64,000 bases of DNA from positions 276,001 to 340,000 of the forward strand of contig NZ_JAKCWP010000004.1 of NCBI RefSeq assembly GCF_028767125.1. The letters are read 5' to 3'. Source of the DNA: Chelativorans sp. YIM 93263 (lineage in GTDB: Bacteria; Pseudomonadota; Alphaproteobacteria; Rhizobiales; Rhizobiaceae). Both the position numbers and the translations under genes were made by a program. Under the pieces are notes generated by a model. The model was not told the origin of the DNA, did no database searches, and saw nothing but the letters and a program-made list of their open reading frames with translations. Below, one piece after another: positions 30,609-42,551 of the stretch; within the stretch, counting starts at the first letter, position 1; each line of letters begins with the position of its first letter.

Positions 30609-31715
30609 TTACGCCGCCACCTTGGCTTTTTCCGGGAACAGCTTCGCGAGGCCTTCCGCGGAGGCTTCCGCCACGCCGCGCTCGGTGATCAGGCCGGCGA
30701 CGAGCCGGGCGGGAGTGACGTCGAAGGCAGGATTGGCTGCAGGTGTTTCATCCGGCGAGATCCGCACTTGAGTTACCGAGCCATCTTCCGTGCAGCCCCA
30801 GATCAGGGAAACCTCATCCGGCGAGCGCTCCTCGATCGGTATTTCCTTCACACCGTCGCGCACTGTCCAATCGATGGTGGGCGAGGGCAGGGCGACGTAG
30901 AAGGGTACATTATTGTCCTTTGCCGCGAGCGCCTTCAGATATGTGCCGATCTTGTTGCACACATCGCCATTGGCGGTTGTGCGGTCGGTGCCGACGATGA
31001 CCATGTCGACCATGCCATGCTGCATCAGGTGACCGCCGGCATTGTCGACGACGAGCGTATGCGGCACGCCATGCCCGGCCATCTCCCATGCGGTCAGGTG
31101 CGCACCTTGGTTGCGCGGACGCGTCTCGTCCACATAGACGTGGACGGGGATGTTTTCCTCCGTCGCAAGATAGATCGGTGAGGTGGCCGTGCCGTAATCG
31201 ACGGTAGCCAGCCAGCCGGCATTGCAGTGGGTGAGGATGTTGACCGGTTCGCCCGGCTTCTTCTTCCTGGCGATCTCCGTGATGATCTCCAGCCCGTGCC
31301 GACCGATGGCGCGGTTCAGCTCGACGTCCTCATCGGCGATCTCCGCCGCTCGTGCGTAGGCCGCCGCCGCGCGCTCGCTCTCAGGCAGCGGACGCAGCGT
31401 GTCCCGCATGGCGTCGAGCGCCCAACGCAGGTTGATGGCGGTCGGCCGTGTGGCGTGCAACTCGTCCCAGACCGCATCCAGCGCGGCATCGGAAGCATCT
31501 TCGCGCATGCGGATCGCCACGCCATAGGCCGCCGTCACGCCGATGAGCGGCGCTCCGCGCACCCACATGTCGCGGATGGCTGTCGCTATGCCTTCCACCG
31601 TGCGCACATTCTCCACGGGGAAGGAATGCGGCAGCCAGCGCTGATCGATGAGGTCCACGGACCAGCCGTCTTCGTTCACCCAGATGGTGCGGTAGTGTTT
31701 TCCTGAGACCTTCAT
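30609..31715 (-). CDS. mtnA: S-methyl-5-thioribose-1-phosphate isomerase
   Basis: 368 aa, eIF2B-alpha/MtnA family. Isomerises 5-methylthioribose-1-phosphate to 5-methylthioribulose-1-phosphate; family members also accept 5-deoxyribose-1-phosphate. Catalytic residues are visible as the Cys in [15 protein letters not shown] and the Asp in [30 protein letters not shown] is the family N-terminal signature. Start ATG 31715 has AAGGAGG 6 nt upstream; the frame continues to 31850 without need. The ATG overlaps the mtnK stop by 4 nt, so mtnK-mtnA is a coupled operon. The remaining methionine-salvage genes mtnB, mtnC, mtnD are not in the window. Confidence 0.96.
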
Positions 31716-32998
31716 TCTTCCGCCTCCTTGCGGACGCTGACAAATCCGTTGTCGAGCGCTTGTGCCAGATGATTGATTTCTCGCAGCGACTGGAGGGCAT
31801 GCCTGTTGACGGCCAGGTGCCGCCCGAACTTTAGCGCCGCCGCCTCGCACGAAGCACGCAGTTCCGTGTCCTCGATGGTCTCGAAATCCGCGTTGTGGGC
31901 GAGACCCAGGATGCGCCGGTGGATCTCCACGCCGGCAAACCCCAGCATCTCCGTCCAGATGTCCCGCAGGATGTGGTTCAGAGCCTGCTCGGCACCCAGG
32001 TAGTCGCCCTGATCTTCATATAGGCTGCGGTGATAGAGCATTCCCGAGCGCTCCGTGTGCCAGAGCCGGGCGAACTCGGCCCGGAAGACAGCCCACGTTT
32101 CCTCGATCACCTCCAATAGATAGGCACGCATTGCGTCGCGTGAACCCCCTGCCTCGTAGCCGCGCTGAGAGAAGAAGGCCATCCAGTAATTCGCCAGCAG
32201 CATGCCGACATCGAAGGAGATCGGTCCATAGAAGGCGAATTCCGGATCGATGACCCGCGTGTCCTCCTTCGTCACCATCACCGATCCCGTGTGCAGATCG
32301 CCGTGTACCAGCGTTTCGGCTTTCGACGCGAAGAGATGTTTCATCCGTTGCGCCTCGACCTTCAGGTCGCGGTCGGCCCGCAATTCTGCCACCAGCGCGT
32401 CGAGTTCCGGCGTATGCCGGTTCATCGGCGCCTCGAAATACGGATCGGTGAAGACGAGGTTCTCCGTTATGTCGCAGAGTTCGGTATTATCGGCGAACAG
32501 CGCGAGGTCCGCCTTGCGCTCGCGGGCTTCCATATGAAGATCGGAGCCACGGAAGAGCGTGCGCGCCATGAAGAGGCCGAGATCCTCGGCAACTTGCCGA
32601 AGTTCCTGCCCCTTTATCAGCGCCTGGCGCAGGATGATGTGTGGAGACAGATATTCCATCACGATCAGCGCCTGAGCCTCGTCGAAATATAGAACCGCAG
32701 GCACTCTGCCGGGCGCACGTTTCTCCTGGCGGGTGAGAGCGTGATATTCGAAGAAGGAGCGCTTGAGCGGCAGAGGCCAGCTGTCGCCCACCAGCCGCAC
32801 ATAGGGAAGCGCTTGCTTCACGACCACAGTGCCCCTGGCGCCCTCCACGATGAAGACGAGGTTGAGATTGCCGTCGCCGACTTCGCGCACCTTCCAGTTT
32901 TCCTGCGCGCCGCCCACGTGTTCCGCCACCGCCGAAATCGGCGCGAGCCGCTCCGCCAGAGTCTCGACCGTCAGCGCCTGGAACGCGGTTTCCTTCAT
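31712..32998 (-). CDS. mtnK: S-methyl-5-thioribose kinase
   Basis: 428 aa kinase of the aminoglycoside-phosphotransferase fold. Phosphorylates 5-methylthioribose at C1. Visible signatures are [13 protein letters not shown] near residues 40-52, [13 protein letters not shown] (MtnK-specific substrate loop), [12 protein letters not shown] (catalytic loop) and [15 protein letters not shown] (metal-binding D-x-E). ATG 32998 has GGAGGAG upstream. A kinase at this step means the cell salvages free methylthioribose (or deoxyribose), not methylthioadenosine by phosphorolysis. It is divergent from a sugar ABC importer across 226 nt that include a palindromic operator, so uptake and phosphorylation are probably co-regulated. 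Confidence 0.96.
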
Positions 32999-33037
32999 TC
33001 TTCTCCTCCCCGTCTGCTGCGGCTAGTCGCGACCATT

Positions 33038-33069
33038 TGCGATATGCATCTTCTGCGATATGCATCTTC
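33038..33069. repeat. Perfect 16-bp tandem duplication in the mtnK leader region
   Basis: TGCGATATGCATCTTC occurs twice head to tail at 33038-33053 and 33054-33069. Each unit contains the palindrome ATATGCAT. It lies 40 nt upstream of the mtnK start, within the probable untranslated leader or promoter. It could be a recent slippage duplication or a double protein-binding site. Confidence 0.85.
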
Positions 33070-33079
33070 CCCCAAGCAC

Positions 33080-33108
33080 GTCAGCCTCGGGCTTGACCCG
33101 ATGAGCCA
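33080..33108. repeat. Degenerate copy of a dispersed intergenic palindrome
   Basis: This copy shares the core CTCGGGCTTGACCCGA with the element at 62352-62374. The 5-bp stem TCGGG/CCCGA encloses CTTGA; outer arms are mutated here. Such short palindromes are scattered between genes in Hyphomicrobiales genomes (established knowledge). It sits between mtnK and the ABC importer. Confidence 0.65.
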
Positions 33109-33163
33109 CGGCGAAAGGACACGAACGAGCGCCTATGTCCATCCCACGCTACCAACGCTCTGT

Positions 33164-33188
33164 CATTTGTCAACGATATTGACAAATG
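33164..33188. promoter_or_regulatory. Palindromic operator with divergent -35 boxes (mtnK / ABC importer)
   Basis: A perfect 10-bp inverted repeat, CATTTGTCAA then 5 nt then TTGACAAATG. On each strand the arm supplies a -35-like TTGACA. On the plus strand TTGACA is followed after 17 nt by TAGCGT; on the minus strand after 16 nt, also by TAGCGT, a modest -10 match. The arm word TTTGTCAA recurs in front of the SorC-type regulator gene at 39430-39437. I infer that the regulator binds here and controls both divergent operons. No binding data are available. Confidence 0.6.
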
Positions 33189-33224
33189 ATTGGCCGGTGC
33201 ATAGCGTCATGCTGGGAGGATAGC

Positions 33225-34736
33225 ATGGCACAGTCCGTCGTCTTTAATATCGCGGGTCTCGGGAAGTCCTTCGGCCCCAACACGGTGTTGCGCGATATAA
33301 CGCTCGCGCTACGCGCGGGCGAGGTGACCGTGCTTATGGGCGCGAACGGCGCCGGCAAATCCACTCTCGTGAAGATCATGAGCGGCGTACACCAGGCGGA
33401 CCGCGGTGCAATGCAGCTTGAGGGCACGTCTTTTCTGCCCGGCACACCGGCTGAGGCCATGCGCGCTGGCGTTGTAACGGTGCATCAGAATATCGACGAC
33501 GGGGTCGTCAGCGCGCTGAATGTCGCCACCAACCTCGTTCTTGACCGGCTGAACAATACGAAACGCGGCATTCTTTTCAATCCGCACCGCATTCGCAGCG
33601 AGGCGCGTGAAATCGCGGAGCAGATGGACCTTTCGCTCGACCTCTCGGCCAATGTAAACGAACTGCCGCTTGCGGACCGGCAAATGGTCGCGATCGCCCG
33701 CGCAATGGCGCACGAGCCGAAAGTGATGATCCTTGACGAGCCGACCTCCTCGCTTTCAAGCAAGGAGGCCGACCGCCTTTTCGCCTTTATAGACCGGCTG
33801 CGCGAGCGCGGTGTCGCAATCCTCTACATCTCCCATCGCATGTCGGATATCCGCCGCCTGGCTGACCGCATCGTCAGTCTGCGTGACGGGCGCATTACCG
33901 GCCTCTTCGAGGACGAGCCGCTCGACTACGAGGGTGCAGTGAACGCGATGCTGGGCCAGGAGTTAAGCGCCGGCCATGCTGCTGCGTGCGCGGCAAGTGA
34001 GCCGATATTTACCGCAAGCGGCGTTCAGCTCGCACCCGGTGCCAGCCCCTTCTCTTTGGCCCTTGGCATGAGTGAGGTGGTGGCGATCACGGGCCTTGTG
34101 GGCGTCGGAAAAACGCAATTGGCGGAGATGCTTTACGGCCTCCGCCATCCGCTTGCAGGTTCCATGCAGCTCGATGGGAAACCCTATGCACCGAGAACAC
34201 CTGCCGACGCCATCCGTCGCGGCGTCTTTCTGGTGGCGAAGGACCGCGCCCGCACCGGCATCGTGCCGGATTTCAATATTTACAAGAACATGAGCCTGCC
34301 GTTCCTGCCGCGCTTTTCGTTTTTCAGCATTACGCAGCGGCGCGCCGAGCGTGCTGCGGCACGAGCGCAAATCGAGAATATGGGCATCGTCTGCCGCAGC
34401 GAGCGCGACGATCTCTTCACACTTTCCGGCGGCAACCAGCAGAAGGTGACGGTCGCGCGATGGTTGTCTCAGCCTTCGCGCATGCTCATTCTCGACGAAC
34501 CGTTCCAGGGTGTGGATATTGCCGCCCGACACGACATTGCGGCCAAGCTCCGCGAGAGCGCGAAAGAGCGTGCCACGCTCCTGTTCCTGACCGAGCTTGA
34601 TGAGGCCCTTGAGACGGCGGACCGGATTTTGGTCATGTCGGAGCACACGATTGTCGGTGAGCATCGTACGTCCGAAGTCGACATGGCGCGCCTGCTCGCC
34701 GAAGTGGCAGGCGCGAACATGCAAGGGGCGGCGTGA
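33225..34736 (+). CDS. Ribose-type sugar ABC transporter, double ATPase subunit
   Basis: 503 aa with two ABC domains in tandem, as in RbsA/MglA. The first has Walker A GANGAGKST and Walker B VMILDEPTSSL; its signature LPLADRQMVAIARAM is degenerate. The second has a degenerate Walker A (GLVGVGKTQ), a good signature LSGGNQQKVTVARWL and Walker B MLILDEPFQGVD. This split of canonical and degenerate sites is normal for the family. ATG 33225 has GGGAGGA 5 nt upstream; an in-frame start at 33186 overlaps the operator. First gene of a three-gene importer operon divergent from mtnK, so its substrate is probably methylthioribose or 5-deoxyribose. Confidence 0.93.
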   Translation: MAQSVVFNIAGLGKSFGPNTVLRDITLALRAGEVTVLMGANGAGKSTLVKIMSGVHQADRGAMQLEGTSFLPGTPAEAMRAGVVTVHQNIDDGVVSALNVATNLVLDRLNNTKRGILFNPHRIRSEAREIAEQMDLSLDLSANVNELPLADRQMVAIARAMAHEPKVMILDEPTSSLSSKEADRLFAFIDRLRERGVAILYISHRMSDIRRLADRIVSLRDGRITGLFEDEPLDYEGAVNAMLGQELSAGHAAACAASEPIFTASGVQLAPGASPFSLALGMSEVVAITGLVGVGKTQLAEMLYGLRHPLAGSMQLDGKPYAPRTPADAIRRGVFLVAKDRARTGIVPDFNIYKNMSLPFLPRFSFFSITQRRAERAAARAQIENMGIVCRSERDDLFTLSGGNQQKVTVARWLSQPSRMLILDEPFQGVDIAARHDIAAKLRESAKERATLLFLTELDEALETADRILVMSEHTIVGEHRTSEVDMARLLAEVAGANMQGAA

Positions 34737-34754
34737 GTCTGGAGAATAGAACGA

Positions 34755-35813
34755 ATGAGAACTGAACTCGCCGAGAAACCGGTTGCCGAGGCGCAACAGC
34801 CGGAGTCGATGCAGCCGAGCCTGACGTTGCGTGAAATCGCGATCCGTTACGGCTTCCTGGCCCTGCTTTTCGGACTCATCATTTTCTTTTCTCTGGCGAC
34901 GGGCGGTTTTGCCTCCCCACAGGCGGCCGTCTTCATCCTGCAATCCGTCTCGATCACCGGTATTCTGGCGCTCGGCGTCACGGCAACGCTTGTGGTCGGC
35001 GGCTTCGATCTTTCCATCGGCTCCGTCGCGACCAGCGCCATGATGGCCGCGGCCTATATGATGGTTATCCTGGAGCAGAATGCGCTTGTCGCGGTTCTCG
35101 TCTGTCTGGCCATCGGCGCCTTCGTTGGTCTGCTTAATGGCCTCATCATCTGCTACATGCGCGTGCCCGACCTGCTCGCCACGCTCGGCATGATGTTCCT
35201 TCTGATCGGCCTTCAACGCATTCCCACCGAGGGCCGCTCTATCGCCTCGGGCATGACGCTCCCGGACGGAAGCGCGGCTGAAGGTACCTTCAGCCCGGCA
35301 TTCCTGGCGCTCGGGCGTCACCGGTTTGATTTCTTTATCGAGAATCTTGTGCCGGCGTCCGTGGTGGTACTGCTCGTCCTAGCGGTCCTCATCTGGTTCT
35401 TTCTGGAATACACCCGCTTCGGTCGCATGATGTATGCCGTGGGCTCCAATGCCCGCGCGGCGGAATTCGCCGGAGCGCCCGTGAACGCCTATAAAATCTG
35501 GGCTTACGTGATTTCCGGCGTGTTCGCTTCCATCGGCGGGATTCTGCTGGCCGCCCGGCTCGGACGCGGTGATATAGCATCCGGTACGAACCTCCTGCTC
35601 GACTCTGTCGCCGCCGCCTTGATCGGTTTCGCGGTGCTGGGCGCAGCCAAGCCCAACGCCTTCGGCACCGCCATCGGCGCGCTCTTCGTCGGCGTACTTC
35701 TGCAGGGGCTGACGATGATGAATGTGCCTTACTATACGCAGGACTTCGTGAAGGGGGCTGTGCTGGTCATCGCACTCGTCTTCACTTTCGCGCTGCTGGG
35801 CAGGCGGAACTGA
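34755..35813 (+). CDS. Ribose-type sugar ABC transporter permease
   Basis: 352 aa inner-membrane permease of the RbsC/BPD_transp_2 family with about nine or ten hydrophobic helices. Family segments include GVTATLVVGGFDLSIGSVAT, the cytoplasmic loop with GSNARAAEFAG (coupling to the ATPase) and the C-terminal GAVLVIALVFTFALLGRR. The N-terminal 30 residues are a hydrophilic extension. ATG 34755 with GGAG 11 nt upstream and an 18-nt gap after the ATPase stop. One permease gene with a double ATPase implies a homodimeric channel. Confidence 0.92.
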   Translation: MRTELAEKPVAEAQQPESMQPSLTLREIAIRYGFLALLFGLIIFFSLATGGFASPQAAVFILQSVSITGILALGVTATLVVGGFDLSIGSVATSAMMAAAYMMVILEQNALVAVLVCLAIGAFVGLLNGLIICYMRVPDLLATLGMMFLLIGLQRIPTEGRSIASGMTLPDGSAAEGTFSPAFLALGRHRFDFFIENLVPASVVVLLVLAVLIWFFLEYTRFGRMMYAVGSNARAAEFAGAPVNAYKIWAYVISGVFASIGGILLAARLGRGDIASGTNLLLDSVAAALIGFAVLGAAKPNAFGTAIGALFVGVLLQGLTMMNVPYYTQDFVKGAVLVIALVFTFALLGRRN

Positions 35814-35850
35814 TAGGTTTTCAAACGGAGAACAACAAGTGGAGGAAACG

Positions 35851-36906
35851 ATGAAGCTGACACGCAGACATCTTGGCAGGCTCACGGCCGGCCTTCTGGG
35901 CGCAACCCTTCTATGGCCGGCCGCAGCGTCCGCGCAGGACATGCCCGCCCCCTTCGACAACCCGGGGGATGTGGAAATCGCGCTGGTACGCTATCTCTCT
36001 ACCGGTGATTTCTTCCAGGCCTATCTTTCAGGTGTCGAAGCCCAGGCAGAAGCACTTGGCGTGAACCTGCGTGTGCTCGATAGCCGGCAGGACGCAGCTT
36101 TGCAGGCCGACATGGTGGACCAGGCCATTGCGCTCGGCGTCGACGGTATCGTCATTCAGCACGGGCTGACGGAGTCGATGAAGGAAGCGGCGCAACGCGC
36201 GGTGGACGCCGGCATCAAGGTTGTCGCCTTCGATGTCAATGTCGAGAACGAGGCCATTCCGCAGATCGAGCAGTCCGACCGAGATCTTGCGCGGCTGGCG
36301 CTCGAGCAGGCGATCGAGGACAATGGCGAAAGCTGGAAGGCAGCCTACGTCTACGTGCCGGGCATTGCCCCGCTCGACCGCCGCAACGAGACCTGGATGG
36401 AGTTCAAGGAGAAATATCCTGGCATCGAGCAGGTCGCGGAGTTTGGTACGCTCGACAACCCGATCGCGAACTCGGTAGCAAACCAGGCGCGTTCGGTGCT
36501 CTCGGCCAACCCCGACACCCAGGTCGTGTTCGCGCCGTATGACGAGTTCGCCAAGGGTGTGAAAATCGCCGTGGACGAGGCCGGTCTTTCCGACGGCATC
36601 AAGATTTACTCCGCCGACATTTCCACCGCCGATATTTCGGCCATGCGCGAGCCGAACAGCGCCTGGGTGGCAACGGCGGCCACGAATCCGGCCGTTGTGG
36701 GCGAGGTCTCGGTGCGTGCGCTTGCCATGCTCCTGGCGGATGAGGATCCGGGCGAGAATGTCGTCGTACCGCCGACGCTGATCACTCAACAGCTTCTCAA
36801 TGATGAGGACGTTAAGAACATGCAGGAGTTGTCGCAGAAGATGCCGCAGTTCGCTCATGCGGATGTAGCGGTTCCCGACTGGATGCCCCTGCCCGAGCGC
36901 GATTGA
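35851..36906 (+). CDS. Periplasmic sugar-binding protein of the importer
   Basis: 351 aa of the Peripla_BP_4/RbsB type. The signal peptide is MKLTRRHLGRLTAGLLGATL with cleavage after AAASA. The mature protein has paired Rossmann-like lobes, seen in IALVRYLSTGDFFQAYLSGV, ALGVDGIVIQHG and QVVFAPYDEFAKG. ATG 35851 has GGAGG 8-12 nt upstream; a GTG at 35839 is an unlikely alternative because the ribosome site would fall inside the gene. It is followed by a strong terminator at 36931. The ligand is inferred from context to be methylthioribose or a similar 5-deoxypentose; ribose itself cannot be excluded. Confidence 0.92.
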   Translation: MKLTRRHLGRLTAGLLGATLLWPAAASAQDMPAPFDNPGDVEIALVRYLSTGDFFQAYLSGVEAQAEALGVNLRVLDSRQDAALQADMVDQAIALGVDGIVIQHGLTESMKEAAQRAVDAGIKVVAFDVNVENEAIPQIEQSDRDLARLALEQAIEDNGESWKAAYVYVPGIAPLDRRNETWMEFKEKYPGIEQVAEFGTLDNPIANSVANQARSVLSANPDTQVVFAPYDEFAKGVKIAVDEAGLSDGIKIYSADISTADISAMREPNSAWVATAATNPAVVGEVSVRALAMLLADEDPGENVVVPPTLITQQLLNDEDVKNMQELSQKMPQFAHADVAVPDWMPLPERD

Positions 36907-36930
36907 TAAGAAGACATTTGGTTTGTAGAA

Positions 36931-36965
36931 GGGCGGCTTGCGGGCCGCCCTTTCTCTTTTGTTTT
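36931..36965 (+). terminator. Rho-independent terminator of the importer operon
   Basis: The stem GGGCGGC (36931-36937) pairs with GCCGCCC (36944-36950) around a TTGCGG loop, followed by TTTCTCTTTTGTTTT. It lies 25 nt after the stop of the binding-protein gene. Confidence 0.88.
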
Positions 36966-37007
36966 GGCCGCGAAGCCGCTGACAGCAGAGAACAAACCAC
37001 AGCGCCA

Positions 37008-37045
37008 GAGCGAAAAAGAAAAACCCCGGCCCAACAAAGCCGGGG
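37008..37045 (-). terminator. Rho-independent terminator of the BCCT transporter gene
   Basis: CCCCGGC (37024-37030) pairs with GCCGGGG (37039-37045) around an 8-nt loop. Read on the minus strand the stem is followed by TTTTTCTTTTTCGC, a good U-tract. It serves the BCCT gene that ends at 37101. Confidence 0.82.
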
Positions 37046-37100
37046 TCTCGCATTGTCTACGGCCCGCGAGCATCGCGAGGCCGCTATAACGATTGTGTCT

Positions 37101-38681
37101 TTAGCGCTCCTCGGCGGCAAGACCCTTCCAGGTGGCATAGAGCATGACCACCAGCAGGATGGCGAACGGGAAGCCCGTTGCGATGGCACCTGCCTGGAGA
37201 GCGGTCAATCCTCCGCCCAGCAAGAGCACAACGGCCACCAATCCCTCGAAGATGCACCAGAACACACGCTGGGCGACCGGGGCGTCGATCTTGCCGCCGG
37301 CGGTGATCGTGTCGATCACCAGCGAGCCCGAGTCGGAAGAGGTCACGAAGAACACGATAACCAGAATGATGCCGATCAGTGACGAAATCGCAGCCAGCGG
37401 AAGATCGGCCAGCATGGCGAAGAGCGACAGCTCCGGCACATAGTCGATCACCGTATCCTGCACGCCCATGTAGCCCTGGTTGAGGAACTGGTCCATGGCC
37501 GTGCCGCCGAATGCCGTCATCCAGAGAATGGACACCATCGTCGGGACGAGGAGCACGCAGGTGATGAACTCCCGCACCGTGCGGCCCTTTGAAACCCGGG
37601 CGATGAACATGCCGACGAACGGCGACCAGGAAATCCACCACGCCCAGTAGAACGTGGTCCAGCCGTGCATGAAGGCTTCGTCTTCACGACCGATCCAGTT
37701 CGAGAACGATGCGAAATCCTTCACGTAGTACCAGCTGTTTTCGAAGAAGCCGGTAATGATGGCAACAGTCGGTCCGACCAGGATCACGAACCCGAGAAGC
37801 AGGATCGCGAGCACCATGTTGATCTCCGAAAGGCGCTTAACGCCCGCGTCGAGGCCCGCGAGAACCGATACGAGAGCCACTGCCGTAATGAGCAGGATGA
37901 GGATGACAGTGGAGAGATCAGTGTTGGGAATTCCGTACAACTCGTTCAGGCCGGCCATGGCCTGAGAGGCGCCGAGGCCGAGAGAGGTCGCCAGGCCGAA
38001 CAGCGTGGCGAAAACTGCCATGATGTCGATCACGTGACCGATCCAGCCACGTATGCTTTCGCCGAAGATGGGATAGAAGACGGAGCGCACGGAAAGCGGG
38101 AGCCCCTTGTTATAAGCCGCGAAGGCCAGCGACAGCGCGAGCACGCCGTAAATGGCCCAGGGATGAAGACCCCAGTGGTAGATGGTGCCCGCCATGGCGA
38201 GTTCGCGTGCGCGGGGAACGGCCGATTGGACCACTTCACCGTCCACGACCGGCGCCTGTGCGCCGAGCGGCGGATTGTTGAAGTGGTACATCGGCTCCAG
38301 AACGCCGAAGAACATGAGCCCAATGCCCATACCGGCAGCGAAGAGCATGGCAAACCAGCCGGCGTAGGAATACTCGGGAACCGCCTCTTTGCCCCCCAGA
38401 CGGACCTTGCCGAGCGGCGTAACGGCCACGACAAGGCAGAACAGAACGAACAGATTTGCCGAGAGCATGAAGACCCAGTCGAATGTCGTCTGCAACCAGG
38501 TGCTGAGCCCCTGAAGCGCGTTGCTGGCATAATCCTGGAAAATCAGCGCGAAAATGACAAACGCGACAATGACGACGGCTGATATGAAGAAAACGGGATT
38601 ATGGACATCCAATCCTATAACGCGGACATTGTCCTGTCCTGCTTCGAGGCCGTGTTCCTCCTCGACGTTCTGTTCTGACAT
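37101..38681 (-). CDS. BCCT-family (betaine/choline/carnitine) transporter
   Basis: 526 aa secondary transporter with twelve expected membrane helices. The family signatures GMGIGLMFFGVLEPMYHF, HWGLHPWAIYGVLAL and FYWAWWISWSPFVGMFIARVSKGRT are all present. It probably imports a trimethylammonium or related compatible solute, coupled to Na+ or H+. The exact substrate is not predictable from these motifs. ATG 38681 has GGAG about 12 nt upstream. It lies between the importer and the SorC-type regulator but on the other strand with its own terminator, so it is not evidently part of the salvage system. Confidence 0.93.
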   Translation of the reverse strand: MSEQNVEEEHGLEAGQDNVRVIGLDVHNPVFFISAVVIVAFVIFALIFQDYASNALQGLSTWLQTTFDWVFMLSANLFVLFCLVVAVTPLGKVRLGGKEAVPEYSYAGWFAMLFAAGMGIGLMFFGVLEPMYHFNNPPLGAQAPVVDGEVVQSAVPRARELAMAGTIYHWGLHPWAIYGVLALSLAFAAYNKGLPLSVRSVFYPIFGESIRGWIGHVIDIMAVFATLFGLATSLGLGASQAMAGLNELYGIPNTDLSTVILILLITAVALVSVLAGLDAGVKRLSEINMVLAILLLGFVILVGPTVAIITGFFENSWYYVKDFASFSNWIGREDEAFMHGWTTFYWAWWISWSPFVGMFIARVSKGRTVREFITCVLLVPTMVSILWMTAFGGTAMDQFLNQGYMGVQDTVIDYVPELSLFAMLADLPLAAISSLIGIILVIVFFVTSSDSGSLVIDTITAGGKIDAPVAQRVFWCIFEGLVAVVLLLGGGLTALQAGAIATGFPFAILLVVMLYATWKGLAAEER

Positions 38682-39020
38682 CTTTTTTCACTCCATTTTT
38701 CGTCCGGCGATCCGCCTCGACGGTACGCCGAAACTCTCCCCCAAGAGAGAGGATGCTGCCGAAGATCAAACTTGGCAAGTCGCCTGATTACGACGCGGAC
38801 TATGCGAATTAAGCCAACGTTTCAATAAATAAGGCGGAAATTGTACCTATTCCGGGCGCAAAGGTGGCGAAAAGACCACCTTTCCAGAACATTTTCTGCG
38901 ATTGTACCGCCTACGCTTGACGAACGCCGCGGGGCGGAGGAGCATCGCCCCGTCAAATACATCCGGAACGAATTGCCGCGAGGTGAATTGTCCTGTGGCA
39001 ATGGCATGTTGGAGAGACCT
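38682..39020. promoter_or_regulatory. Divergent region between BCCT gene and lipoprotein gene
   Basis: 339 nt without a supported gene. It contains two inverted repeats. AAAGGTGG (38860-38867) and CCACCTTT (38876-38883) form an 8-bp stem with an 8-nt loop, and downstream CGGGGCG pairs with CGCCCCG around 9 nt. Neither is followed by a T-run, so they are not terminators and could be operators. A T/A-rich stretch at about 38815-38845 may hold the BCCT promoter. Confidence 0.45.
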
Positions 39021-39290
39021 ATGAAAAAACTCATTCTCTTGGTCCCATTCCTTTTGTTTGCGATCGCCGCATGTACGCCCACTCAGCAGGGCGCGGCCAT
39101 CGGCGGCGCGGGTGGTGCGGCCGTAGGTGCGGCAGTGGCTGGCAATGAACTCGAAGGCGCGCTTCTTGGTGGTGCGGTCGGCAGTGTGGCCGGTGCGCTT
39201 ATCGGCCGTGCGTCGGAGGGCAGCAGTCAGTGTGTCTATCGCGACGAATATGGACGCCGCTATACGGCAGCTTGTCCCCGGGGCTACTGA
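39021..39290 (+). CDS. Small glycine-zipper lipoprotein
   Basis: 89 aa. The first 18 residues are a lipoprotein signal with lipobox IAAC (LLFAIAACTP). Residues about 26-65 are Gly/Ala-rich with repeated small-residue spacing (GAAIGGAGGAAVGAAVAG; GALLGGAVGSVAGALIG), a glycine-zipper segment expected to insert in the outer membrane. A short hydrophilic tail contains two cysteines. GGAGAG lies 6-11 nt before ATG 39021. A strong terminator follows at once, so it is a single-gene unit. Related small lipoproteins are common in rhizobia; the function is envelope-related but not defined. Confidence 0.85.
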   Translation: MKKLILLVPFLLFAIAACTPTQQGAAIGGAGGAAVGAAVAGNELEGALLGGAVGSVAGALIGRASEGSSQCVYRDEYGRRYTAACPRGY

Positions 39291-39313
39291 GCAGGAATAC
39301 ACCTCAACTTCCC

Positions 39314-39350
39314 AAAAAGGGCTGGAGCCGAAGGTTCTGGCCCTTTTTTT
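39314..39350 (+). terminator. Strong Rho-independent terminator after the lipoprotein gene
   Basis: AAAAAGGGC at 39314-39322 pairs with GCCCTTTTT, and the interior GGAGCC/GGTTCT adds a further stem with G-U pairs around a GAA loop. The T-run follows directly. Confidence 0.88.
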
Positions 39351-39421
39351 GGGAGGAAAATCCCCACTAGCATCACAGCGCGAACTGGCATTCATCGCGC
39401 AGCCCGGTCTGCCCGCCCCTA

Positions 39422-39451
39422 CATTGACTTTTGTCAATGAGCATGAATAAT
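39422..39451 (+). promoter_or_regulatory. Promoter and palindromic operator of the SorC-type regulator gene
   Basis: A perfect inverted repeat, CATTGAC - TTTT - GTCAATG (39422-39439), overlaps a -35 box TTGACT (39424-39429). After a 16-nt spacer comes AATAAT (39446-39451), five of six matches to the -10 consensus. Transcription would start near 39458, just before the GGAGGAG ribosome site. The word TTTGTCAA is shared with the palindrome before mtnK and the importer. The layout suggests negative autoregulation. Confidence 0.6.
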
Positions 39452-39473
39452 GTCGAGCCGGAGGAGATGGCTA

Positions 39474-40448
39474 ATGCTTCGTCCGGCAGACCAGATTGTT
39501 CATAAGGCCGCCTGGCTCTATTACACGCACGGCCTCCGCCAGGATGAGGTGGCGCGCCGGCTGAATATTTCGCGCGCGTCGGTTGCGCTCTATTTGCGGC
39601 GGGCGCGCGAAACCGGCATCGTCAATATTTCCGCATCCACCCAGTTGTTCCGCAGTGACCGGCTGGCGCGCCAACTTGAAGATCGTTTCGGCTTCGAGGC
39701 GGTTTGGGTTTTAGGCGAAGAAGGGCTGACGGACGACCCCACAGCGGAAATTCCCACGCTGGCGGCAAGCGTTTTTCTTGAGATGGTGCAGAATGGAGAT
39801 CGCGTGGGTGTAGCCTGGGGGCGGACGGTCTATGCAATCGCCGATGCCATGAGCTATGCTGACCGCCAGGGCGTCACGGTCGTAGAGATGTGCGGCAATC
39901 TTGGGTCTCCCTATTCCTATAGGCCAGATCAGTGCACTATGGAGATTGCCCGCCGGCTTAATGCCAGCGGATTGAACTTCTATGCGCCGCTTGTCCTCAG
40001 TACGGAGGACCTTGCCCGCCAGTTGCGCGAGGAGCCGGTCATCCGCGAACAACTCGACGGCATCGCGGGCTGCGATCTTGCCCTTTTCACTGTCGGCACA
40101 TTGGATGAAGACAGCCACGTCATCAAATGCGGCGCGTTGGGGCTGGATGAACTGGCGGAAATAAAGAAGCTCGGCGCCAAGGGCGTCATCGCCGGACAAA
40201 TCATTGGCTCTGACGGTGCGCTGCTGGATTGCAGCTACAATCGCCGTATGATCTCCGCCGATTTCGAGTCCATTCGCGCTATTCCCCGGCGTCTGATGGT
40301 GGTGCAGGAAGACGAAAAGTTGGAGCCCCTGCTTGCGGCCATCGAAGGCCGCTTTCTCACACATCTTGTGCTGACCGCACGCATGGCGGAAAGCCTTCTC
40401 GAACATGCGGGAGCGGGCGAAGCCGAGCCTGCTCCCGCCTCCGCTTGA
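39474..40448 (+). CDS. SorC/DeoR-like sugar-binding transcriptional regulator
   Basis: 324 aa. The N-terminal helix-turn-helix (HGLRQDEVARRLNISRASVA) precedes a SorC-type effector domain related to sugar-phosphate isomerases (VGVAWGRTVYAIADAM, CGNLGSP, GAKGVIAGQIIGSDG). Effectors of this family are typically phosphorylated sugars. ATG 39474 is chosen because GGAGGAG lies 8-14 nt upstream, and because the other in-frame ATG at 39450 falls inside the predicted -10 box. It is 48 nt upstream of the aldolase-dehydrogenase gene in the same direction, so it probably regulates its own operon and the mtnK/importer region. Confidence 0.9.
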   Translation: MLRPADQIVHKAAWLYYTHGLRQDEVARRLNISRASVALYLRRARETGIVNISASTQLFRSDRLARQLEDRFGFEAVWVLGEEGLTDDPTAEIPTLAASVFLEMVQNGDRVGVAWGRTVYAIADAMSYADRQGVTVVEMCGNLGSPYSYRPDQCTMEIARRLNASGLNFYAPLVLSTEDLARQLREEPVIREQLDGIAGCDLALFTVGTLDEDSHVIKCGALGLDELAEIKKLGAKGVIAGQIIGSDGALLDCSYNRRMISADFESIRAIPRRLMVVQEDEKLEPLLAAIEGRFLTHLVLTARMAESLLEHAGAGEAEPAPASA

Positions 40449-40496
40449 ACGGTCGCTCCGGCGGCCATCTGAGTTTTCGAACACGACAGGAATACA

Positions 40497-42551
40497 ATGC
40501 ATAACCTCTGGAACGACAAGGAAGCCGAAAAGCTCGTCAGTGAATACGCCGAAAAGGGTGTCGACCGGGATCTGGCCCTGCGGGTCTACACCACTCGGTT
40601 GCTCGGTGGTGAACCACGGCTGGTGTTGCATGGCGGCGGCAACACTTCGCTGAAGACCAAAGCGAAGGACATTCTCGGCCAGGAGTGGGACGTGCTTTGC
40701 GTAAAGGGGAGCGGCTGGGACATGGGCGTCATCGAGCCGCCCGGACTGCCGGCGGTGAAGATGGAGGCGCTGCTCGCCGCGCGCCAACTGGACAGCCTCT
40801 CCGACGAGGCGATGGTGGCGATGCAACGCGCAAACCTGCTTGACCCCTACGCGCCGAACCCCTCGATCGAGACGCTGCTGCACGCTTTCCTGCCGCACAA
40901 ATTCGTCGACCATACCCACTCGACGGCCATCCTGGCCCTGGTCGACCAGGCAGACAGCGAGCCGCTGTGCCGCGAGGTGTTCGGCAAGCGCGTGGGCTTC
41001 GTGCCTTACATCAAGCCGGGCTTCGAGCTCGCGAAGGCTGCGGCCGATATCTACGACGCCGATCCGTCGGTTGAAGGGCTTATCCTCGACAAGCACGGCA
41101 TCTTCACATTCGCCGCTACTGCCAAGGAAGCCTACGACCTCATGATAGAGTTCGTGACCATGGCCGGGGACCATGTGGCGAAGAACGGCAAGAAGCCGTT
41201 CACGTCGGTCGCGTTGCCGCAAGCGCTCGCCAGGCCTGAGGAAATCGCGCCCTATCTGCGCGGCGCGGCGGCCATTCCGCAGGGCGAGGGCAGCTTCGGA
41301 CGTATGGTGACCGACTTCCGCACCTCGCCGAAAATCCTCGACTATGTAAATGCCGATACAGCTGAGGAACTGGCCACGCGCGGCGTTTCCACGCCTGACC
41401 TGTCGATCCGGATCAAGACCGGCCCGATGGTTCTGCCCGCGCCCGAGGCCGGCAAGCTCGAGGAATATGGCGAGACGATCCGCGAGAAAGTGGCCGATTT
41501 CTCCGCCCGCTATTGCGACTATTTCGAGACCAACAACGCGCGTGACGAGGTCGAGCGCACCATGCTCGATCCCATGCCGCGGCTCGTGCTTGTGCGTGGC
41601 CTTGGGCTCTTCGGCCTCGGCCGCAGCGCGAAAGAGGCGAAGGTTGCTGCCGATGTGGGCGAGATGCTGGTCGAAGCGGTCACGGGCGCCGAGGCCATTG
41701 GCTCCTTCCATCCGTTGCCGCTCTCGGATCTTTTCGAGCTTGAATATTGGTCGCTCGAGCAGGCCAAACTCGCCGCCAACAAGCCGAAGCCGCTCTCTGG
41801 TCAGGTGACGCTGGTGACCGGCGGCGCGGGCGCAATCGGCGCGGCGACGGCAAAGCTCTTCGCCTCGCAGGGCTCCCATATCGTCGTGGTGGACCTCGAC
41901 GAGGAGAAGGCCAAGGCGGTGGCCGGGGAAGCCGGAAACGCCTCCATTGGCGTCGGCGCGGACGTGACGGATCCGGCCGCCGTGCGCGCCGCCTTCGACC
42001 GCGCGGTGGAGACATTCGGCGGCGTGGACATCATCGTTTCCAACGCCGGTGCGGCCTGGCAGGGCAAGATCGGCGAGTTGGACGACGCCGCTCTGCGCAA
42101 GAGCTTCGAGCTGAATTTCTTCGCGCACCAGACCGTCGCGCAGAACGCTGTACGCCTTTTCGAGAAGCAGAAGACGGGCGGCGTCCTTCTCTTCAACACC
42201 TCCAAGCAGGCGGTCAATCCGGGTGCGAACTTCGGCGCCTACGGACTTCCGAAGGCGGCGACGCTGTTCCTGTCGCGCCAATATGCGCTCGACTACGGCG
42301 CGCTGGGCGTGCGCTCCAACGCCGTCAACGCCGACCGCATCCGCTCCGGCCTTCTGACCGACGATATGATCGCCAGCCGGGCCCAGGCGCGCGGCGTCTC
42401 GGAAAAAGACTACATGGGCGGGAATCTGCTCGGCCATGAGGTCCGTGCCGAGGATGTGGCGCAGGCTTTCCTGAACCATGCCCTGGCAGAGCGCACCACG
42501 GCGGATGTGACCACGGTCGATGGCGGAAACATCGCCGCCGTGCTTCGATAA
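40497..42551 (+). CDS. Bifunctional class II aldolase / short-chain dehydrogenase
   Basis: 684 aa two-domain enzyme. Residues about 1-420 are a class II aldolase/adducin domain: GGGNTSLK binds the phosphate, His139 and His141 (VDHTHST) and His200 (LDKHGIFT) are the expected metal ligands. Residues about 433-684 are an SDR with TGGAGAIG, Ser569, Tyr582 and Lys586. The same architecture in rhizobial RhaD cleaves rhamnulose-1-phosphate and oxidises lactaldehyde. Here the linked mtnK and mtnA suggest cleavage of 5-methylthioribulose-1-phosphate (or 5-deoxyribulose-1-phosphate) to dihydroxyacetone phosphate and an aldehyde, which the SDR would reduce or oxidise. Architecture is certain; substrate is inferred. 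Confidence 0.9.
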   Translation: MHNLWNDKEAEKLVSEYAEKGVDRDLALRVYTTRLLGGEPRLVLHGGGNTSLKTKAKDILGQEWDVLCVKGSGWDMGVIEPPGLPAVKMEALLAARQLDSLSDEAMVAMQRANLLDPYAPNPSIETLLHAFLPHKFVDHTHSTAILALVDQADSEPLCREVFGKRVGFVPYIKPGFELAKAAADIYDADPSVEGLILDKHGIFTFAATAKEAYDLMIEFVTMAGDHVAKNGKKPFTSVALPQALARPEEIAPYLRGAAAIPQGEGSFGRMVTDFRTSPKILDYVNADTAEELATRGVSTPDLSIRIKTGPMVLPAPEAGKLEEYGETIREKVADFSARYCDYFETNNARDEVERTMLDPMPRLVLVRGLGLFGLGRSAKEAKVAADVGEMLVEAVTGAEAIGSFHPLPLSDLFELEYWSLEQAKLAANKPKPLSGQVTLVTGGAGAIGAATAKLFASQGSHIVVVDLDEEKAKAVAGEAGNASIGVGADVTDPAAVRAAFDRAVETFGGVDIIVSNAGAAWQGKIGELDDAALRKSFELNFFAHQTVAQNAVRLFEKQKTGGVLLFNTSKQAVNPGANFGAYGLPKAATLFLSRQYALDYGALGVRSNAVNADRIRSGLLTDDMIASRAQARGVSEKDYMGGNLLGHEVRAEDVAQAFLNHALAERTTADVTTVDGGNIAAVLR

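Follow-up and report, generated by a model that had tools for sequence, protein, structure and literature searches.

Layout of the locus and probable specificity of its importer

The window analysed here, a 64,000-nucleotide stretch of the genome of Chelativorans sp. YIM 93263, holds a cluster in which genes for a 5-methylthioribose (MTR) kinase and isomerase, a sugar importer of the ATP-binding cassette (ABC) type, a SorC/DeoR-type regulator, and a fusion of a class II aldolase with a short-chain dehydrogenase (SDR) lie together (Table 1). Judged from its sequence, the cluster is likely to be a scavenging regulon for exogenous MTR, and probably 5-deoxyribose, of the dihydroxyacetone phosphate (DHAP) shunt type, with the aldolase and the aldehyde oxidoreduction placed on one chain.

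Table 1. Genes and candidate operators of the cluster, numbered from the first base of the window
Feature	Coordinates	Strand	Evidence or remark
mtnA, 5-methylthioribose-1-phosphate isomerase, 368 aa	30609..31715	-	TIGR00512 431.8 bits, cut-off 279
mtnK, 5-methylthioribose kinase, 428 aa	31712..32998	-	TIGR01767 505.5 bits, cut-off 275
Palindromic candidate operator TGTCAA-CGATA-TTGACA, between mtnK and importer	33168..33184	.	Promoter conservation in relatives
ABC importer ATPase, sugar type, two nucleotide-binding domains	33225..34736	+	PF00005 in two stretches
ABC importer permease	34755..35813	+	PF02653
Periplasmic binding protein, 5-methylthioribose-binding type	35851..36906	+	PF13407; best match 4RY8
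BCCT transporter, between importer and regulator	37101..38681	-	Probable bystander
Candidate operator TTGACTTTTGTCAA over -35-like box TTGACT	39424..39437	.	-10-like TAATGT at 39448-39453
SorC/DeoR-type regulator	39450..40448	+	PF04198; start probably 39474
Bifunctional class II aldolase/SDR fusion, 684 aa	40497..42551	+	NF006192 1099.2 bits, cut-off 639

A sequence-only reading of this stretch had placed a coupled mtnK-mtnA pair divergent from an ABC importer, and a SorC-type regulator upstream of a 684-aa aldolase-SDR fusion. Both placements hold: the importer (33225-36906) diverges from the pair at coordinates that agree, mtnK and mtnA are coupled because they overlap in the tetranucleotide ATGA, as read from the sequence, and the regulator and fusion carry PF04198, PF00596, and SDR domains. 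The best relatives of the mtnA product in the PDB (1t9k, 6a34, and 2yrf) are all named methylthioribose-1-phosphate isomerases, and those of MtnK are 2pyw and the methylthioribose kinase 2olc.

The importer had been called a full ribose-type system, and ATPase, permease (one gene only), and binding protein are indeed all present. The binding protein is closest to 4RY8, which the PDB titles the 5-methylthioribose transporter solute-binding protein TLET_1677 of Thermotoga lettingae and whose ligand, going by that title, is presumably MTR. The match to this best solved relative (phmmer E 3e-67; Foldseek E 7.9e-31) is at 37-38% identity, against about 21-24% for the ribose-binding proteins listed by Foldseek, and the structure model of the binding protein has a mean predicted local distance difference test score (pLDDT) of 87. 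Judging from these relatives, the importer most likely carries MTR-type sugars. A narrower or different substrate, either 5-deoxyribose alone or D-ribose, passing through the kinase, isomerase, and fusion, is possible but doubtful, and its 5-deoxyribose version overlaps with the preferred reading. For such a substrate speak the top scores of the importer parts, which fall to ribose-type and arabinose-type families and all lie under the cut-offs (for the ATPase, the top NCBIfam matches are sugar importer ATPases, none over its cut-off among the best 25 listed), and the report that DrdK of Bacillus thuringiensis takes 5-deoxyribose as well as MTR (PMC6079011); ribose itself is disfavored by the identities given above and by the inactivity of DrdK on it in the same report. 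Under the preferred reading, 5-deoxyribose is probably a further substrate of the scavenging regulon.

Although mtnK and mtnA are by name methionine-salvage genes, it is very unlikely that the module serves chiefly to supply ordinary methionine salvage, in which MtnB, MtnC, and MtnD recycle 5'-methylthioadenosine (MTA) and the importer would be incidental. The sequence-only reading had noted that mtnB, mtnC, and mtnD are missing from the window; for MtnB and MtnD the absence extends to the whole genome, while MtnC was not searched. MtnD (acireductone dioxygenase) has no match in this genome, and its two PF00596 genes, namely the fusion and a PRK07044-type gene, include none over the MtnB cut-off and no stand-alone Ald2/DrdA-type aldolase. 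MtnP was likewise not found in the genome (of 151 family genomes, three have it above the cut-off), and none of the three PF01048 genes is an MTA nucleosidase (MtnN): two encode purine nucleoside phosphorylases and the third an AMP nucleosidase (763.4 bits against 307). With MtnB, MtnD, MtnP, and MTA nucleosidase all undetected, the substrate of MtnK is probably imported sugar; the same absences and the 4RY8 match support the earlier proposal of import followed by a kinase-isomerase-aldolase shunt for 5-deoxypentoses. Elsewhere in this genome (L080:31-2271), an amidohydrolase gene similar to one in genome G068 (311.6 against 522 with the 5'-deoxyadenosine deaminase model) stands ahead of a purine nucleoside phosphorylase gene, and the two products might act on MTA or 5'-deoxyadenosine.

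The aldolase-dehydrogenase fusion and the loci that carry it

The fusion matches PF00596 at residues 31-223 and SDR domains at 436-617 and 446-677, and it passes the cut-off of NF006192 (bifunctional aldolase/SDR) over residues 1-684; residues 230-425 are without a Pfam match, yet they are conserved and occur in stand-alone homologues too. The residues named in the sequence-only reading (His139, His141, His200, Ser569, Tyr582, and Lys586) proved correct and, together with Glu125 and Asp466, are invariant in 24 aligned fusions (that of the window and 23 others). Asp466 in the SDR half presumably marks the NAD(H) type, so that this half would be NAD-type. By motif position, the aldolase half is predicted to have metal-binding histidines and a catalytic glutamate, and Glu125 would be the acid/base glutamate by its correspondence to Glu76 of DrdA (PMC6079011). 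A structure model of the whole fusion has a mean pLDDT of 70, with low values at 28-48 and 71-122, and the 50 Foldseek matches listed are SDR-type; therefore, no conclusion was rested on it. An internal duplication of the aldolase half was rejected (profile comparison probability 1.9), as was a four-enzyme polypeptide in genomes G080 and G131 (open frame of about 1500 aa), where the open reading frames proved separate.

An identical domain architecture is found in RhaEW, the rhamnulose-1-phosphate aldolase/lactaldehyde dehydrogenase, for which activity is reported in Chloroflexus and, weakly, in Bacillus subtilis, along with a B. subtilis growth phenotype (PMC3870299). That the window's fusion is this rhamnose enzyme, merely adjoining mtn genes, is nevertheless extremely unlikely: it scores 485.7 bits with TIGR02632 (RhaEW), under the cut-off of 567.75, whereas the rhamnose-operon protein of R. 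leguminosarum reaches 1192.6, it is 31-35% identical to proteins of rha operons, and it falls outside the RhaEW branch of the fusion tree. A rhamnose isomerase elsewhere in the genome was not found with TIGR02629, a search that matched three control genomes, none over the cut-off, and that left rhaA-type isomerases unsearched.

The tree holds 79 proteins, obtained from 100 (which include 18 of the 80 best loci described below) by removing 21 near copies; it was built by a quick method under LG+G4, with RhaEW as the chosen outgroup and with support from the Shimodaira-Hasegawa-like approximate likelihood-ratio test (SH-aLRT) only, and long-branch warnings were raised for L203, L205, and both RhaEW rows. 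The window's fusion stands in a 28-row clade (SH-aLRT 100), 24 rows of which lie beside mtnK, while the mtnK-linked L072, L078, L091, and L202 fall outside it. A 7-row polyol-type clade is nested in a group with mtnP-linked rows, and a 3-row Lsr-type clade stands elsewhere. In a clade of about 50% identity (L058-L063, L077, L088, and L090), the neighbors, where read, are SDR, glycerol-phosphate-dehydrogenase-like, or FGGY-kinase-like genes, with another ABC importer beside and without mtn genes. Furthermore, a stand-alone homologue of about 415 aa, 43-49% identical to the aldolase half, is encoded by the last gene of the autoinducer-2 (AI-2; lsr) operons of Alloyangia, Thalassospira, Sinorhizobium meliloti, and Rhizobium sp. 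WL3 (L093:8001-9242, L094:8001-9248, L177:8001-9251, and L178:8001-9254); no lsrF is annotated in these stretches, and the homologue is possibly a DHAP-forming aldolase for phospho-AI-2.

Conservation was assessed in the best 80 of 591 confirmed loci, a sample that leans to close relatives and spans Chelativorans, Nitratireductor, Mesorhizobium, Aminobacter, Devosia, Rhizobium, Shinella, Ensifer, and others. All 80 carry the regulator, 73 have mtnK and mtnA, and 71 have these two along with the whole importer; six of the seven loci without mtnK and mtnA lie on stretches cut by contig ends. The genome survey that the sequence-only reading had proposed points the same way, as at least 35 of the 151 family genomes have a fusion that is 59% or more identical, and mtnK lies within 15 kb on the same contig in 28 of the 35 listed (some of the surveyed loci are on the same contigs as loci among the best 80). 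In individual genomes the parts lie otherwise: they are split over different contigs (G086 and G055), mtnA is near the fusion and no mtnK is among the matches listed (G062 and G049), mtnK is about 35 and 25 kb from the fusion (G019 and G121), or mtnK is on another contig (G068). Compact fusion-mtnK-mtnA runs without the importer also occur (L044, L046, whose contig equals that of L109 in length, and L047 in the family; L107 among the best 80). The cluster is thus a real conserved unit that recurs across genera, beyond chance. The BCCT transporter gene between importer and regulator, which the sequence-only reading did not mention, was considered as a member and rejected, since it is found in just 7 of the 80 loci, all of Chelativorans or Nitratireductor; it also lies near the regulator in G068 (L066) and is probably a bystander.

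Outside the family, a survey of 289 genomes of the class gave 46 fusions among the matches listed, of which 35 loci were fetched; mtnA or mtnP is present in 23 of these (19 with mtnA, 14 with mtnP), and the fusions often stand in mtnP-(apt)-mtnA operons, in which two mtnP genes pass PRK08931 and one apt gene passes its model. A run of mtnK, mtnA, and the fusion also occurs in another phylum, in Gemmatirosa (Gemmatimonadota). Where mtnK-mtnA stretches lack the fusion, a single-domain class II aldolase adjoins in 4 of 13 (L067, L068, L071, and L074); the first three have 218-220 aa, and their top scores, all under the cut-off of 264, are with the fuculose-phosphate aldolase subfamily (254.7, 252.0, and 196.7, respectively), whereas that of L074 was detected by tblastn only. 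On account of this replacement and of the shared operons, aldol cleavage of the MtnA product is the most likely role of the fusion.

The regulator and its candidate operators

The regulator matches PF04198 with 166.2 bits against 27 and, in its N-terminal helix-turn-helix, Sigma70_r4_2 with 27.2 against 25.7; its closest solved relative is the deoxyribonucleoside regulator 8r7y, and it scores 154.6 with the DeoR model, under the cut-off of 420. Because the annotated ATG lies within a conserved -10-like box, the true start is probably 24 bases later. With E. coli YjhU (MtnR) it has PF04198 in common and 32% identity over 310 aa (residues 14-317 aligned). MtnR/YjhU, which is termed a member of the DeoR family, represses the E. 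coli DHAP shunt (PMC12632272); hence, the relationship gives independent support for a shunt pathway.

At the promoter region between mtnK and the importer, the palindrome TGTCAA-N5-TTGACA is present in 84 of 84 unique regions, a sample drawn from 99 loci with ATPase and mtnK, of which 90 have an ATPase more than 60% identical and, with the window, make 91. Counted outward from the core, pairs 1 to 6 are complementary in 64, 82, 84, 84, 65, and 53 of the 84, and pairs 1, 2, and 5 show changes on both sides. Among the nine loci below the ATPase filter, the palindrome is found in L054, L055, L065, and L078. The 4.25-Mb genome of the window has this one site, and the reversed control gives none. 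Upstream of the regulator gene, TTGACTTTTGTC is present in 89 of 93 unique sequences, which remain of 101 stretches after the window duplicate L083 and exact duplicates are removed; the box overlaps a -35-like hexamer, with a -10-like hexamer 18 bases on. Within 400 bases upstream of the fusion no site was found in 19 chosen family and plasmid loci, several of which have sites at a greater distance, ahead of the regulator, mtnA, mtnK, or a cupin gene, and others none. In G068, in which the fusion is unlinked, a TTGACAATTGTCAA site stands roughly 50 bases ahead of a cupin gene (PF07883), which is followed by the fusion; at that locus (L057:6684-8643) the cupin gene diverges from an amidohydrolase gene whose best scores are to 5'-deoxyadenosine deaminase models, under their cut-offs.

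Joint control of both transcription units is argued from the half-sites common to their promoters, and by this phylogenetic footprint the regulator probably acts on both. The alternative, that the regulator and fusion form a unit for a different ketose, unrelated to the neighboring importer-mtnKA unit, is improbable. It would fit the separation of the two transcription units by a BCCT gene, the unlinked fusion of G068, and the existence of polyol-type paralogues; however, it is opposed by the common half-sites, by the compact fusion-mtnK-mtnA runs and the mtnP-mtnA-fusion runs elsewhere, and by the position of the G068 site ahead of the cupin gene and the fusion.

Proposed pathway and comparison with known systems

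In the proposed scavenging pathway, the ABC importer would take up the sugar, as its binding protein suggests, after which MtnK would phosphorylate C1 and MtnA would isomerize the product to the ribulose-1-phosphate, in keeping with the reactions known for these two families, the cut-offs of which both proteins pass. On the evidence of context and residues, the aldolase half is predicted to cleave the MtnA product into DHAP and methylthioacetaldehyde or acetaldehyde, and the fused SDR would oxidize or reduce the resulting aldehyde, with both transcription units presumably under the SorC-type regulator. The fusion would thereby replace the stand-alone Ald2/DrdA-type aldolase of the DHAP shunt; as no such aldolase was found in the genome, the system would work like the shunt with a different aldolase. 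For the SDR, oxidation is somewhat favored over reduction by analogy with RhaW: the RhaEW SDR is reported to oxidize lactaldehyde with NAD+, an activity that appeared essential for the aldolase step (PMC3870299), whereas in Rhodopseudomonas palustris and Rhodospirillum rubrum a separate putative alcohol dehydrogenase is described as reducing methylthioacetaldehyde (PMC5893883).

Several observations weigh against this pathway or its proposed control. Linkage of the fusion to mtnK switches at least five times on the tree, and a paralogue clade of about 50% identity occupies polyol-type loci without mtn genes; its member L088 scores 1046 bits in NF006192, the same model as the window's fusion, which means that membership in the family does not fix the substrate. 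L108 is without mtnK and mtnA on an uncut stretch, mtnK lies beyond 15 kb of the fusion in 7 of the 35 listed family genomes, and neither mtnA nor mtnP is found in the stretches of 12 of the 35 class-level fusion loci. Moreover, no replacement aldolase was found nearby in 9 of the 13 fusion-free mtnK-mtnA stretches, four of which (L065, L066, L197, and L218) belong to genomes with the fusion elsewhere. As for the operators, the palindrome is missing from five of the nine distant loci (L067, L068, L069, L071, and L072), the 400 bases upstream of the fusion showed no site in any of the 35 class-level loci, and the conservation of TTGACTTTTGTC may partly be that of a promoter because of its overlap with the -35-like hexamer. 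The generic TTGAC-N4-GTCAA was rejected as a regulon predictor, with 5 sites against 3 in the control.

Some relatives carry a further attachment to the cluster, a split transketolase and a RuBisCO-like protein, in 11 of the 80 best loci and on plasmids of Shinella, Mariluticola, Pararhizobium, Agrobacterium, and strain NT-25. It follows mtnA in L084 (20325-23382), L085, L086, L087, L092, L149, L158, L159, L162, L164, L166-L169, L172, and L174, and it stands beside the importer in L055 and L072. The attached RuBisCO-like protein scores under the MtnW cut-offs; none was found in the window's genome by a search that matched 6 of 9 genomes, with relatives as controls. By analogy with the RuBisCO-like isomerase of R. 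rubrum (PMC5893883), the attached protein could isomerize the MtnA product. A two-outlet pathway is tentatively suggested, in which the window's fusion would yield DHAP and (methylthio)acetate or the alcohol without free aldehyde, and relatives in Rhizobium, Shinella, Ensifer, and Devosia would add a second outlet, where the RuBisCO-like protein would isomerize the intermediate to 1-methylthio- or 1-deoxy-xylulose-5-phosphate and the split transketolase would cleave that product.

If the proposed pathway is true, a sulfur-containing sugar, possibly shed by other cells as waste of S-adenosylmethionine use, is competed for by many Rhizobiaceae and related Alphaproteobacteria, and many genes labeled only "bifunctional aldolase/short-chain dehydrogenase" gain a function other than in rhamnose metabolism. 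The system would, in addition, directly test whether an aldolase-dehydrogenase fusion shields cells from reactive aldehydes, and it would draw attention to the RuBisCO-like proteins and split transketolases that accompany the cluster.

Taken singly, the shunt, the transporter-bearing clusters, the fused architecture, and the regulator family are already known, and the novelty suggested in the sequence-only reading for the fused form with import and SorC control is not supported for the three features singly: the aldolase-SDR architecture is known from RhaEW (PMC3870299), kinase-isomerase-aldolase clusters with sugar transporters have been reported (PMC6079011), and MtnR, of the same regulator family, represses the E. 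coli shunt (PMC12632272), so that the regulator type is not new for this pathway. In the accessible text of the open-access literature, a description of an aldolase-SDR fusion in the DHAP shunt was not found, nor was one of the regulon, of these features in combination, or of the attached RuBisCO-like protein and transketolase; subscription journals may contain such descriptions.

Compared with the DHAP shunt described for R. rubrum, R. palustris, and extraintestinal pathogenic E. coli (MtnP or MtnN and MtnK, MtnA, and Ald2; PMC5893883, PMC10986504, and PMC12632272), the window has the same logic of kinase or phosphorylase, isomerase, and class II aldolase, with DHAP and (methylthio)acetaldehyde as predicted products, and a regulator in the family of the E. 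coli repressor MtnR/YjhU. It differs in that Ald2 and the dehydrogenase of R. palustris and R. rubrum are described as separate proteins, whereas the window has one chain and a linked importer. The regulator likewise belongs, by PF04198 and solved relatives, to the family of B. subtilis DeoR/LsrR/SorC, unlike DeoR itself in falling under that model's cut-off, and the binding protein has its best sequence and fold match in TLET_1677. The DrdK-DrdI-DrdA system for 5-deoxyribose disposal in B. thuringiensis is reported to have the same three-step chemistry, and four of the clusters drawn there include sugar transporter genes (PMC6079011); it is unlike the window in that DrdA is of the fuculose-aldolase type, and the words "bifunctional" and "short-chain" are absent from the main text of that paper. 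RhaEW, like the window's fusion, has a class II aldolase followed by an SDR and is reported to give DHAP and an aldehyde that is oxidized with NAD+ (PMC3870299); unlike it, RhaEW uses rhamnulose-1-phosphate and belongs to rha operons, and the window's fusion lies on a separate branch.

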